This document shows, piece by piece, positions 2,496 to 34,649 of a stretch of DNA of 48,073 nucleotides; position 1 is the stretch's first letter; the number at the start of each line of letters is the position of its first letter. Below the pieces are notes generated by a model, which saw nothing but the letters and a program-made list of their open reading frames with translations, was not told the origin of the DNA and did not search any database. The stretch lies in contig JAGHRT010000011.1 in assembly GCA_018066245.1 (NCBI GenBank), forward strand, positions 1-48,073, given 5' to 3'. This DNA is from Candidatus Equimonas faecalis. Lineage in GTDB: Bacteria; Bacteroidota; Bacteroidia; Bacteroidales; Bacteroidaceae. Position numbers and translations under genes: made by a program.

Positions 2496-3764
2496 TTATT
2501 CTTCGCGCTTGCTGACGCGGCTGCCGACGAGGGCATAGAACAGGATGTAGGCGGCGCAGAAGAGGACTACCCAGAAGCTATTCATGTAGCCGAAGATGTC
2601 AGCGGCATAACCCTGGATGGCCATCATAACGGCACAACCGAATACCATGGTCATAAAGATGCCGGATGCTATGGCGGTGTACTTGCCGAGGCCTTCAACG
2701 GCCATATTGAAGATGGCTCCCCACATCACGCTGGTGCAAAGGCCTACGAGCAGGAAACTGAAGATGCCGAGGCTTACGGGCTGCCAAATGACGCTCAAGT
2801 TGCCCCAATCGACACCGGGGAAATTAACCTGGACATCGGCAGGTGCATACATGCCGAAAAGTACGAGTATGATGGTAGCGGTGCTCACGGTAGTAATCAT
2901 GGCGCGGGCGCTGATCTTGTTGCCGATGGCAGCACCAACGAAACGGCCAATGAGCATCATGAACCAGTAAACAGCCACAATGAGACCTACCGTTGCAGCA
3001 GGTATGCCGTCGCCTACGAGCATGAGGTTTACAAAGTTAGGTACACCTACTTCAATACCCATGTAGAGGAAGATGGCCAGCGCACCGAGTGCGAAGTGGC
3101 GGTAGCTCATAGCGCCCTTGATGAGGTCCACGCGAACGGGAGCCTGCTCGGGTTCTTCAATCTTGGTGAAGCAGATTACGAGTTCGGCTACGATGAAAAT
3201 GGCGAGGGCTATTAAGAGAGCAGGAGTAGCATCGGCAATCTTGGCCTTGGTAGCATCGGCGATAAGAGCGCCCATGAGAATGTAGCAGCAAACGGCGGCA
3301 GAGCTGTTGAACACACCGCCAATCTGGATGAGCTGGTTACCCTTGTTGCCGCCACCGCCGAGGAGGTTGAGCATGGGGTTTACAACACAGTTGAGAATAC
3401 ACATGCAGAGACCTGCGATGAAAGCACCGATGAGGTAAACGGTGAAGACGAGGCCCAGATTTTCCTGAGCGTCAAGCAATCCACTGCACCACTGGATTAC
3501 AATGCCAATGATACCTACTGCAATGCCGATGAGGGCGGTCTTCTTGTAGCCGAACTTGGCGATGAGCATACCGGCGGGGATACCCATGACAAGGTAGGCG
3601 ATGAAGTTGCCGTAGTTGCCAATCTGAGCCAGCACATTGGAGATTTCTCCTTGGTTCTTGATGATGGTTGCCATAGGTGAGCACAGATTGGTCACGAAGG
3701 CAATCATTGCGAACAGGGCTATCATAACGATGATGGCGCCCCACTGTTTTGTTTGTTGTGACAT
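2496..3764 (-). CDS. Galactose/glucose MFS permease (FHS family)
   Basis: A 422-residue inner-membrane transporter of the major facilitator superfamily. The hydrophobic profile fits about twelve membrane segments, with AKFGYKKTALIG as the first cytoplasmic loop and a second charged loop near the middle (TKIEEPEQAPVRVDL). The FHS subfamily imports galactose, glucose or fucose with protons or sodium. Its place between galM and galK makes galactose the likely substrate; that is inferred from context. The ATG at 3764 has no competing upstream start. The C-terminus ends in a short charged SRVSKREE tail. Confidence 0.88.
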   Translation of the reverse strand: MSQQTKQWGAIIVMIALFAMIAFVTNLCSPMATIIKNQGEISNVLAQIGNYGNFIAYLVMGIPAGMLIAKFGYKKTALIGIAVGIIGIVIQWCSGLLDAQENLGLVFTVYLIGAFIAGLCMCILNCVVNPMLNLLGGGGNKGNQLIQIGGVFNSSAAVCCYILMGALIADATKAKIADATPALLIALAIFIVAELVICFTKIEEPEQAPVRVDLIKGAMSYRHFALGALAIFLYMGIEVGVPNFVNLMLVGDGIPAATVGLIVAVYWFMMLIGRFVGAAIGNKISARAMITTVSTATIILVLFGMYAPADVQVNFPGVDWGNLSVIWQPVSLGIFSFLLVGLCTSVMWGAIFNMAVEGLGKYTAIASGIFMTMVFGCAVMMAIQGYAADIFGYMNSFWVVLFCAAYILFYALVGSRVSKREE

Positions 3765-28490: not shown

Positions 28491-30284
28491 TTATACGTAG
28501 ATAACTTCGGGGGTGAGGGTGATGCCGAACTTTTCCTGCACGCTTTCCTGAATGGCGGTAGCGAGCCTGACGATGTCCTTGGGACGGGCACCGCCATGGT
28601 TAACGATGACGAGGGCTTGCTTGTCGTGGGTGCGCACTTTGGCATCGGCGGTGAGGCCGCGGCCTTTCCAACCTGCCTGTTCAATGAGCCAGGCGGCGGG
28701 GAGCTTTGTTCCCGAGGCATCGGGGTATTGCGGCATGTTCGGCCACAGTTCTTGCAGCTGCGCGGCCTTCGATGCGCTTACCACGGGATTCATGAAGAAG
28801 CTGCCTGCGGAGCCGAGGTGGGCGGGGTCGGGGAGCTTGGCTCGACGTACAGCCACTACGGCCTCACGCACGGCGGCTGCTGTAGTGAGGCCTTCTTGGA
28901 GCCCCCTGTGAGGCATAGCGGGTTGGAAGGCGGTGGAGAGGGCGTAATCCACATGGGTGATGATGTACTGCCCGGCCAAGGCGTGCTTGAATATGCTGCT
29001 GCGATAGCCGAACTGACATTCTGCTTTTGTGAATGTGCGCTCTTCGCCCGTAGCCGTGCTGACAGCATGGACGGCGTGGATGTACTGCCCGGCCTCACAG
29101 CCGTAGGCTCCGATGTTCTGGACGGCAGAAGCGCCCGCCTCGCCGGGGATGAGACTGAGCGGTTCCAGGCCGTAGAAGCCCTGCTGGAGTGTCCATGCCA
29201 CAAAGTCGTCCCACTGCTGCGCGGCACCTACCCTGACGACCACGCGGCCCTGGGCATCGGGGGGCTGCACAACACTGAGCCCTTTGATAGCTGACTTGAG
29301 AATGGTGCCGGCATAGTCGGCGGTGAACAGCAGGTTGCTGCCGCCGCCGATTGGCATGAAAGGTTCGTCGGGCCTTGCGCGAACGAGGTCAAGAGCTTCG
29401 CGGAGTTGTGCCTTGTCGTAGTAGGTGATGAAGCGCCGGCAATGGACGTCAAGGCCGAAGGTATTGTGGTGAAGCAGGGAGTAGTTTTCCCTGATATCCA
29501 AGTTGTACTCTAAGGCTTTGGCTTCGTTCCAGAGTGCATCCATTTCAGCGAGCGTCATCTGCTTGAGGTCGCGGCCCTGCTTGAGAGTCTTGGATTCAAG
29601 GTAGTTGAAGCGTCGTATGAATTTTTGGTTGGTTTGCTCCAGAGCGTTATCGGGATTGATGCCGTGGAGGCGGGCTACATTGATGAGCGAGAAAAGCACA
29701 TCACCAAATTCGGCCGTGGCCTTGTCCTTGTCCATTTGCGCCACTTCGGTCTCAAATTCGGCGATTTCTTCTTTCACCTTGTCCCACACTTGCTCTTTTT
29801 TCTCCCAGTCAAAGCCTACATTACGGGCTTTGTCCTGAATGCGGTAGGCTTTGATGAGAGAGGGTAGGGAAGAGGGAACTCCAGAGAGGACGGTCTTGTT
29901 ACCGTCCTTCTCCTTCTGCTTTATCTGCTCCCATAACTTGCTGACTTCTTCTGCATTGGACGCGGCCTCTTCTCCAAATACATGAGGATGGCGGAAGATG
30001 AGCTTATCGGTAAGCTTCTGGCACACGTCACCAATGTCGAAGTCGCCCGTCTCACTGCCTATTTTGGCGTAGAAGCACACATGGAGGAGCACATCGCCCA
30101 GTTCTTTGCAGATGTTGGGCTTATCGTTCTGCACGAGTGCATCGCATAGCTCGTAAGTCTCCTCAATGGTGTTGGGGCGCAGCGACTCGTTAGTCTGTTT
30201 GCGGTCCCACGGGCATTTTACGCGCAGTTCGTCCAGTACATCAAGAAGTCGGGCGAACTGTTCCAGCTGTTCCTGTCTTGTCAT
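28491..30284 (-). CDS. MazG-MurB fusion: NTP pyrophosphohydrolase plus UDP-MurNAc synthesis reductase
   Basis: A 597-residue single frame. Residues 1-259 are a full MazG: CPWDRKQT, the metal-binding TIEETYEL and ELGDVLLHVCFYAK, then a second EE..E / EFGDVLFSL set, ending in the usual WNEAKALE. From residue 260 the frame continues YNLDIRENYSLLHHNTFGL into a complete MurB: GGGSNLLF, IPGEAGASAVQNIGAYG, FGYRSSIFK, the catalytic-Ser loop GSAGSFFMNP, and C-terminal PEVIYV. MurB reduces UDP-GlcNAc-enolpyruvate for peptidoglycan. MurB could also start separately at TTG 29501. The gene starts 10 bp after carB. Confidence 0.88.
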   Translation of the reverse strand: MTRQEQLEQFARLLDVLDELRVKCPWDRKQTNESLRPNTIEETYELCDALVQNDKPNICKELGDVLLHVCFYAKIGSETGDFDIGDVCQKLTDKLIFRHPHVFGEEAASNAEEVSKLWEQIKQKEKDGNKTVLSGVPSSLPSLIKAYRIQDKARNVGFDWEKKEQVWDKVKEEIAEFETEVAQMDKDKATAEFGDVLFSLINVARLHGINPDNALEQTNQKFIRRFNYLESKTLKQGRDLKQMTLAEMDALWNEAKALEYNLDIRENYSLLHHNTFGLDVHCRRFITYYDKAQLREALDLVRARPDEPFMPIGGGSNLLFTADYAGTILKSAIKGLSVVQPPDAQGRVVVRVGAAQQWDDFVAWTLQQGFYGLEPLSLIPGEAGASAVQNIGAYGCEAGQYIHAVHAVSTATGEERTFTKAECQFGYRSSIFKHALAGQYIITHVDYALSTAFQPAMPHRGLQEGLTTAAAVREAVVAVRRAKLPDPAHLGSAGSFFMNPVVSASKAAQLQELWPNMPQYPDASGTKLPAAWLIEQAGWKGRGLTADAKVRTHDKQALVIVNHGGARPKDIVRLATAIQESVQEKFGITLTPEVIYV

Positions 30285-33521: not shown

Positions 33522-34649
33522 TTATTTCAGGTTGTTTATAAAGTCATCGTACAAATTGGTACCAATAGCGGTAGTAGAGGCTGTGTCGTCGGGCTGGAAT
33601 TGCGTGGCCCACCATGCCTTTCCGTTGTGCCTGATGCCCTCCAGCGAACCGTCGTTCATGTTGATGAACCACTTTTCCCAGTTCGCCGGCAGCGTGTCGG
33701 CCGCCACAGCGTAGGAATGGGTTTGCGCGGTAACGATGCAGTGGTTTGTGCCGACTTCGCGCACGGGTTGATTGTGTGAGTGGTGCCCGTATTTCAGTTT
33801 GTAGGTGTCGGCACCTTCGGCTAAGGCCATCAGCTGCATACCAAGGCCGATGCCCATACAAGGCTTTTCGGATGTTTGGAAGTATTGCTGCAAATGCTTG
33901 ACAGTGACTTCACACAAAGTGGGATTGGCTGGGCCATTGCTAATAACAAGTCCGTTGAAAGACAGGGTATTGAAGTCGTAGTCCCAAGGCACGCGCACCA
34001 CGTCCACACCACGGCGCAACAGGCTACGAATGATAGACTGACGCACACCGCAATCTACCAGCACCACACGTTTACCAAGAGGGCGGGATGGGGTAGGGGA
34101 GCTACCGTCCATAGACCTCTCAACATAGTCCTGAGCCTTGTACTCAATGACATCCTTGCAACTTACCTCGGCCACAGGATTAGGGATATCGGCCCGTATG
34201 TCCAGCTCTTCATCTTCCGTGCCAAAGAGAATGGTGCCTCGCATACTTCCCTGGTCGCGAAGAGTTTTAGTCAGTTCGCGCGTATCAATGCCCGTAATGC
34301 CTGTAACTTGTTCGCGCTTCAACCAATCGGCCAGACTTTCCTTGGCATTCCAGTTGGAAAATTCTTCACTGTAATCGCTGACTACCAAAGCCTTGACCTT
34401 GATGCTTTCACTCTCCATGAACGATGATAGTCCATTGGCTTCCGTACTCAGTTCGGGAACCCCGTAATTTCCAATAAGGGGATATGTGAGAACAAGAATC
34501 TGACCTGCATTGGAGGGGTCAGTCAAAAGTTCATTGTAGCCCATCATGGCTGAGTTGAACACAACTTCTCCTTTTACGGAGGCCTCGTAGCCAAAGCTAT
34601 AGCCTTCAAATTGTGTACCGTTGTCTAACTGTAGTTTAACCTTACGCAT
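33522..34649 (-). CDS. carA: Carbamoyl-phosphate synthase small subunit with inactive glutaminase site
   Basis: A 375-residue CarA homologue with the N-terminal CPSase domain (RKVKLQLDNGTQFEGYSFG...) and a class I amidotransferase domain. The nucleophile motif GICLGHQ reads GIGLGMQ, so catalytic Cys (269 in E. coli) is Gly268. The FQ-HPE motif reads TQFQPDD, so His353 is Gln352 and Glu355 is Asp354. The SNGPGDP loop reads SNGPANP. The fold residues around them are conserved (KLKYGHHSHNQP, ITAQ-like VTAQTHSYA), so this is loss of catalysis, not a broken gene. It should still pair with CarB structurally. Confidence 0.92.
   Translation of the reverse strand: MRKVKLQLDNGTQFEGYSFGYEASVKGEVVFNSAMMGYNELLTDPSNAGQILVLTYPLIGNYGVPELSTEANGLSSFMESESIKVKALVVSDYSEEFSNWNAKESLADWLKREQVTGITGIDTRELTKTLRDQGSMRGTILFGTEDEELDIRADIPNPVAEVSCKDVIEYKAQDYVERSMDGSSPTPSRPLGKRVVLVDCGVRQSIIRSLLRRGVDVVRVPWDYDFNTLSFNGLVISNGPANPTLCEVTVKHLQQYFQTSEKPCMGIGLGMQLMALAEGADTYKLKYGHHSHNQPVREVGTNHCIVTAQTHSYAVAADTLPANWEKWFINMNDGSLEGIRHNGKAWWATQFQPDDTASTTAIGTNLYDDFINNLK

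Follow-up and report, generated by a model that had tools for sequence, protein, structure and literature searches.

The carbamoyl-phosphate synthetase of bacteria is generally regarded as glutamine-driven, and animal CPS1 is a known case in which the glutaminase site has been lost. A structure of the E. coli synthetase with the C269S substitution is present in the PDB (1c30), which we take to be the whole CarAB complex, so the complex forms without the catalytic Cys. Passages of one study state that E. coli CarAB can use ammonia (PMC3017870), citing a 1987 paper by Rubino that in its title credits the large subunit, and passages of another describe human CPS1 as keeping a dead amidotransferase domain, with Ser294 in place of the Cys, and propose an alternative ammonia entry (PMC4655335). 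A literature search whose coverage left most subscription journals outside found no bacterial CarA without the Cys and no CarB without CarA. Here we analysed a stretch of 48,073 nucleotides from Candidatus Equimonas faecalis (the window), probably an animal-gut bacterium, for which a preliminary description had claimed a carAB operon with an inactive CarA, likened it to animal CPS1, an apt comparison given the Ser294 of the human enzyme, and proposed an ammonia-dependent synthetase suited to an ammonia-rich niche.

The glutaminase triad of the window CarA

The carA reading frame runs over 375 aa with 0 internal stops, its product carries the Pfam domains PF00988 (6-140) and PF00117 (196-360) of a CarA, and carB follows on the same strand 8 bases downstream (Table 1). 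The product scores 364 bits against TIGR01368, the model of the glutamine-hydrolysing small subunit, which is above the cut-off of 307, so annotation by this model would call it glutamine-hydrolysing and metabolic models of such species would therefore charge glutamine wrongly. Residues were matched through alignment to the E. coli CarA chains of the PDB and through a 29-row CarA alignment, and both agree with the preliminary description that Gly268, Gln352 and Asp354 occupy the places of Cys269, His353 and Glu355. The Cys-His-Glu triad of class I glutamine amidotransferases thus reads Gly, Gln and Asp in otherwise conserved surroundings, the change from Glu to Asp being conservative. Replacements were also seen at the place of Gly243, presumably part of the oxyanion/glutamine site, and at those of Asn311 and Gly313, which we take to belong to the glutamine-binding loop. 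The tunnel position Gly293 of E. coli was tried as a further marker and is uninformative, since the window and most intact relatives have His there; CPS1 has Gln at this position, as counted in the alignment (passages of PMC4655335).

Table 1. Features of the carAB operon, in window positions
Feature	Position	Strand	Basis
carB, complete large subunit, 1072 aa	30295..33513	-	ORF; TIGR01369
carA, catalytically degenerate small subunit of carbamoyl-phosphate synthetase, 375 aa	33522..34649	-	ORF; TIGR01368, PF00988, PF00117; AlphaFold2
Asp354 (GAC), at Glu355 place of E. coli	33588..33590	-	codon + alignments
Gln352 (CAG), at catalytic His353 place of E. coli	33594..33596	-	codon + alignments
Thr310 + Ser312, at E. 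coli Asn311 + Gly313 places	33714..33722	-	alignments
Gly268 (GGC), at catalytic Cys269 place of E. coli	33846..33848	-	codon + alignments
Ala241, at E. coli Gly243 place	33927..33929	-	alignments
Linker between CarA domains, 29 aa	34068..34154	-	linker comparison

An AlphaFold2 model built from the 29-row alignment reached a mean pLDDT of 88.5 and a pTM of 0.90, and its best structural match in the PDB was E. coli CarA (1cs0_B, TM 0.87), with human CPS1 also matched. The triad and glutamine-site replacements, the model and the PDB matches together point to a CarA that is predicted to fold but in which no glutaminase site is plausible any longer. Judged by its sequence, this CarA is very unlikely to hydrolyse glutamine, as the preliminary description had held. 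An error of sequencing, assembly or binning is hardly credible as the source of the replacements. The window does come from a draft assembly of 62 contigs, but the reading frame is uninterrupted, an intact fold is predicted, and the operon continues into a CarB that shares 94% identity with the one of genome G009, a horse-faeces relative (MAG Horse_feces106, locus L112) whose CarA is also without the Cys; related Cys-less CarAs with different replacements occur in other genomes and contradict this objection.

CarB of the window is complete, conserved and ordinary (1543 bits, passing TIGR01369), and it is the single CarB found in the genome (E 1e-100 or better). The preliminary description had made its reading depend on there being no second active CarA. 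This stands as far as the assembly goes: a PF00988 search of its 62 contigs, 89.8% complete, returned 1 match only, the window CarA. Of the three PF00117 domains found in the genome, one is that of CarA. The other two both have Cys, His and Glu; we read one as GuaA and the other as a C26-type peptidase joined to a dipeptidase-like portion. One transcarbamylase was found in the assembly, of the stronger-scoring kind found in 18/18 genomes tested, which from family knowledge we take to be PyrB; a second kind (13/18 genomes) was found neither in the window genome nor in G009, G008, G449 or the intact, 99%-complete G061. Since this one transcarbamylase is taken as PyrB, the carbamoyl phosphate would probably serve pyrimidine synthesis.

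The operon is flanked by two further genes on the same strand. Directly after carB, a 597-aa ORF (28491-30284, -) joins a MazG-type pyrophosphohydrolase (residues 10-257) to MurB (263-595), and at the same place in the horse-faeces relative (L112, 8200-10029) lies a 610-aa ORF with a similar start. Just upstream of carA is a small FdtA/WxcM-like gene (PF05523; 34694-35110, -); L112 has an ORF of the same length at 3334-3747, and some relatives have a PurF-like gene there.

Distribution and origin of Cys-less CarA

The Bacteroidales-wide comparison of CarA suggested in the preliminary description was run and found a repeated change. In the window's genus, 45 of the 58 genomes searched have a CarA, with one match each; the Cys is lost in 4/45 (window, G009, G008, G019) and kept in 41/45, and no other CarA was found in G008, G009 or G019, whose genomes are 81-86% complete. 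Among 24 genomes from other families of the order, 18 gave a match and the triad is present in 18/18. CarA was also examined beside 80 named CarB loci, which were taken as the top-scoring hits of the window CarB among the matches listed and are not a random set: 77 show the Cys column, with Cys in 74/77 and absent in 3/77 (L112, L184, L185), and in the other 3/80 CarA is partial or absent from the stretch. L184 (Alistipes sp. RGIG9478, yak cecum) and L185 (Paludibacteraceae RGIG5388, sheep colon) are near-identical.

A CarA match was found in 305 of the 399 family genomes searched, including 32 of genus g48 and 15 of g54. These two genera were picked for low scores or several matches and are not a fair sample of the family; the states of their 47 sampled genomes with CarA were tallied by hand. 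In g48 (n=32), 14 genomes have a Cys-less CarA only, 15 a Cys-less CarA plus an intact carAB, 2 an intact CarA only and 1 an intact CarA with a siteless fragment. In g54 (n=15), the Cys-less CarA is alone in 8, among them G208 with an additional siteless fragment; it is fused to CarB and accompanied by a separate intact carAB in 5, and 2 have an intact CarA only. The Cys-less form is therefore the only one in 22/47 and coexists with an intact carAB in 20/47 (5 of these fused), the fusions (L289-L293) being open frames of 1342-1450 aa. Among g48 genomes at least 90% complete, 5/8 have Cys-less CarA only, including G104, whose listed completeness is 100%; its sole CarA is Cys-less, and it gives two transcarbamylase matches.

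Could a second, intact CarA in the missing tenth of the window genome supply the glutaminase, the window copy being a spare? The 20/47 genomes with both forms and the 89.8% completeness leave room for this, but we consider it decidedly unlikely: the intact copy of g48 brings its own carB in a separate operon and the window genome yielded just one CarB, a single CarA match came from each of the 45 genus genomes with a CarA, and G009, G008 and G019 each have a Cys-less CarA only.

The replaced residues differ between lineages. The Cys-less CarAs seen besides the window's keep the Glu, except for a distant second CarA in G448, and those of g48 have lost only the Cys and keep His and Glu. In nearly all cases Gly replaces the Cys, the exceptions being L249 with Asp and L285 and L286 with Glu; Gly would fit a strained nucleophile turn that relaxes once the Cys is not needed. 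A Cys three places past the lost one is found in many Cys-less CarAs of g48 and g54 (GIGMGCLL, GIGLGCQL) and was considered as a substitute nucleophile. It was rejected: Asn stands there in L273 and L277 of g54 and Met in the window, and the intact L060 of another family has both Cys.

Several unusual CarAs were met in the same searches. In L154, from a water-buffalo cecum MAG with a partial CarA, the Cys is kept and Leu and Thr replace His and Glu, possibly an early stage of loss. In G448, to which L184 belongs, the distant second CarA (L206/L300) is 33% identical to L006, has Asp-Gln-Asp at the triad places and adjoins a CarB 41% identical to the window's. Four loci of genus g37 (L193, L196, L197, L199) have a CarA just 37-38% identical to L006 with the triad intact, which may have replaced the original gene by transfer. 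Within the window's genus, L032/L067 (G071), L019 (G007) and L005 (G021) have open frames of 1490-1512 aa, which suggests that CarA and CarB are fused there with the triad intact.

CarB trees were built with FastTree on 91 picked rows and with an IQ-TREE mixture model on 38 of those. On these trees the Cys-less state needs four changes, and the starred branches force four, if carA and carB are assumed to travel together; the four groups are the window with G009, G008 with G019, L184 with L185, and the genera g48 and g54. AU tests on CarB rejected a single clade of all Cys-less rows (p 3.8e-59), as well as two groupings chosen after the first tree had been viewed, namely window, G009, G008 and G019 (p 1.7e-4) and window, G009, L184 and L185 (p 5.5e-56). 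A long-branch warning on the CarB tree concerns rows distant from the window, namely L270, and L255 together with the CarB-only rows. A 35-row CarA tree was judged uninformative for counting losses, the Cys-less rows being its longest branches: it joins all 13 Cys-less rows with the intact L081 among them, a single clade is not rejected (p 0.60), and a topology placing the window, G009 and the intact G071 together is slightly better, by 4.2 log units, than the free tree. Judged by the CarB sequences, Cys-less CarA appears to have arisen at least four times in Bacteroidales, with relatives changing separately; a single dead carA could conceivably have spread by transfer of carA alone.

The interdomain linker of CarA served as an independent character. 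It measures 29 aa in the window, G009 and the intact sister lineage G071 (L067) and 28 aa in four intact cousins, against 11-15 aa in the 20 remaining Cys-less rows; six intact rows further away have 31-35 aa of a different sequence. Taken together, CarB trees and linker indicate that CarA and CarB of the window were inherited jointly from an ancestor with an intact CarA, common to G071, and because G071, the sister lineage by CarB, keeps the complete triad, the triad was lost after the split from it.

CarA of the window has diverged far more than its CarB. Compared with G009, CarB is 94% and CarA 60% identical; compared with the intact G071, 91% and 60%. The dN values for these two comparisons are 0.325 and 0.342 for CarA, and 0.043 and 0.067 for CarB. 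Thirteen pairs were computed. The five valid intact control pairs with enough divergence have a CarA/CarB dN ratio of 0.9-1.4 (e.g. 0.137 and 0.123; 0.091 and 0.097), two intact pairs, L039-L040 and L007-L008 (0.008 and 0.002), are too similar to judge, and the pair L018-L042, a Cys-less against a fast intact CarA, has dN of 0.274 and 0.097. One control pair (L032-L006 with L067-L091) combined CarA and CarB from different genomes, G032 and G062, and was left out. When CarA branch lengths were fitted on the CarB topology for 29 of the 91 CarB-tree rows, the CarA/CarB ratio was 10.0 for the window and 12.9 for G009, and summed to 5.08 over all Cys-less branches and 1.44 over all others. Some Cys-less branches have modest ratios (L073 1.5, L285 2.8, one internal zero), and some branches without loss are fast, namely one internal branch (7.2) and that of the intact L081 (G066; 3.4), which neighbours G008 and G019. 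CarA speed is not a clean marker of Cys loss.

Such speed, and the existence of relatives with CarB and no CarA, would be expected if carA were decaying, no longer needed by a large subunit that works alone. We regard decay as unlikely. The window frame is open and its full fold is predicted with confidence; Cys-less CarA is kept in 42/47 sampled genomes of g48 and g54; and between G008 and G019, where dS is not saturated (0.78) as it is in several other pairs, the dN/dS of the Cys-less CarA is 0.055, which indicates that it is not a pseudogene and is still under purifying selection after the loss. The tree position of the CarB-only relatives, too, speaks against decay. Of the 94 family genomes without a CarA match, 20 were tested and 15 have CarB, which is full-length in 13 and in pieces in 2 and shares 62-66% identity with the window CarB. 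PF00988 was absent from 11/12 of these genomes searched for it, including 9/9 at 90% completeness or more, while the twelfth, G021, has its own carAB in addition; no amidotransferase gene was apparent near carB in six loci whose neighbours were read by eye. The CarB-only rows form one clade apart from all CarA-linked CarBs (10 rows in FastTree, 2 in IQ-TREE), so these relatives are not the end state of the window lineage. Full-length CarB without CarA was seen in highly complete genomes of several genera (L095-L107; G090, G117, G083, G100, G082, G139 and others).

Ammonium transport and operon neighbours

A search of the window genome for the ammonium transporter AmtB gave no match. Over 45 genomes, the transporter was found in 0/13 with Cys-less CarA only, 3/3 with both operons, 1/23 of the genus with intact CarA and 0/6 with CarB only; within g48 it is present in 3/3 tested genomes with both operons and 0/5 tested with the Cys-less one only. 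AmtB absence was rejected as a marker of the Cys-less state within the window's genus, as 22/23 of its intact-CarA genomes are likewise without it. The genus seems mostly to lack the transporter, CarA intact or not; therefore the ammonium-rich life put forward earlier is weakly supported, and its link to Cys loss inside the genus is unsupported. The earlier interpretation is probably right in its core, with the ecology unproven.

The intact second carAB of g48, with its own carB, lies in an island, in an operon apart from the Cys-less one. In G233 the island begins with a PII-like protein (84 bits, below the cut-off), the ammonium transporter, unrelated genes and asparagine synthase B, continues with a gene without NCBIfam match that we take to be a probable type III glutamine synthetase, the large and (by eye) small subunits of glutamate synthase and dapF, and ends with LL-diaminopimelate aminotransferase, carA, carB and purF. 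G180 has the same order up to the start of carB. In Prevotella ruminicola 23, a cluster of amtB, glnK, asnB, glnN-2, gltBD and dapF is reported to respond to ammonium; the direction of the response differs between passages of that source, and carA is not named in them (PMC5552732).

The Cys-less operons have varied neighbours: purA, purB and purC (by our reading) in L299, unrelated genes in L276 and L301, and in L285, L290 and L302 a 631-640 aa PurF-like ORF directly upstream of carA. Such a class II protein raises the thought that another amidotransferase domain feeds CarB, the L302 ORF scoring 123.7 bits against the purF model, below its 350-bit cut-off. We hold this to be highly improbable, as a similar ORF stands beside the intact carA of L114 and none stands beside carA in the window, L112, L276 or L301.

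Recurrence of glutaminase-site loss in Bacteroidales is more interesting than a single oddity would be. The lineages range over several states: an intact triad; in one lineage, a Cys retained without His and Glu; a CarA without the Cys; a Cys-less CarA fused to CarB; and a separate CarB clade with no CarA. The series is natural material on why a dead amidotransferase subunit is kept, and bears also on the tuning of an ammonia-dependent synthetase and on ammonium supply as a driver. One reading, to which we give an even chance, is that a bacterial equivalent of the CPS I/CPS II split seen in animals arose four times or more in Bacteroidales. A dead-CarA synthetase, fused in one lineage, would work on ammonia, and the glutamine-driven carAB, where kept, would sit in a nitrogen-assimilation island (PII, amtB, asnB, glutamate synthase) apparently gained or lost as a unit; the two would serve high- and low-ammonium modes, and the window lineage would have the ammonia mode only.

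Comparison with known carbamoyl-phosphate synthetases

We think it very probable from the sequence that the window CarA no longer hydrolyses glutamine yet continues to be produced and to fold as the partner of CarB, and that CarAB uses free cytosolic NH3, with bicarbonate and ATP, to form carbamoyl phosphate. The enzyme is read as ammonia-dependent because E. coli CarAB can use ammonia and CPS1 keeps a dead amidotransferase domain. CarA may be kept as a structural or regulatory partner, for the stability or regulation of CarB, and ammonia in the cell would have to be high enough for such synthesis.

The window operon resembles that of E. coli CarAB, of the CPS II type, in having separate CarA and CarB and the same CarA fold. 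It differs in that the triad and part of the glutamine site are naturally replaced, so that glutamine would not be the donor. Its nearest intact counterpart is the carAB of the sister lineage G071, with an orthologous CarB (91%) and the same 29-aa CarA linker; there, as in most other Bacteroidaceae seen, Cys, His and Glu are all present. The CarB-only synthetase of other genera of the family shares the want of a working glutaminase partner, but there no CarA was found and CarB belongs to the separate, 62-66% identical clade.

Among PDB sequences, human CPS1 is the best match to the window CarA (287 bits, against 216 for E. coli CarA). Both have an inactive amidotransferase domain beside the synthetase, in the window by its sequence only. 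Human CPS1 keeps His and Glu in the alignment, whereas the window has also lost His; it is a single chain that needs N-acetylglutamate, whereas the window has two ORFs. Because it has two chains and its ammonia use is an inference, we do not file the window enzyme as CPS I, although it would appear to work like one. A layout like that of CPS1 is seen in the five g54 genomes in which amidotransferase and synthetase form one chain and the Cys is lost.
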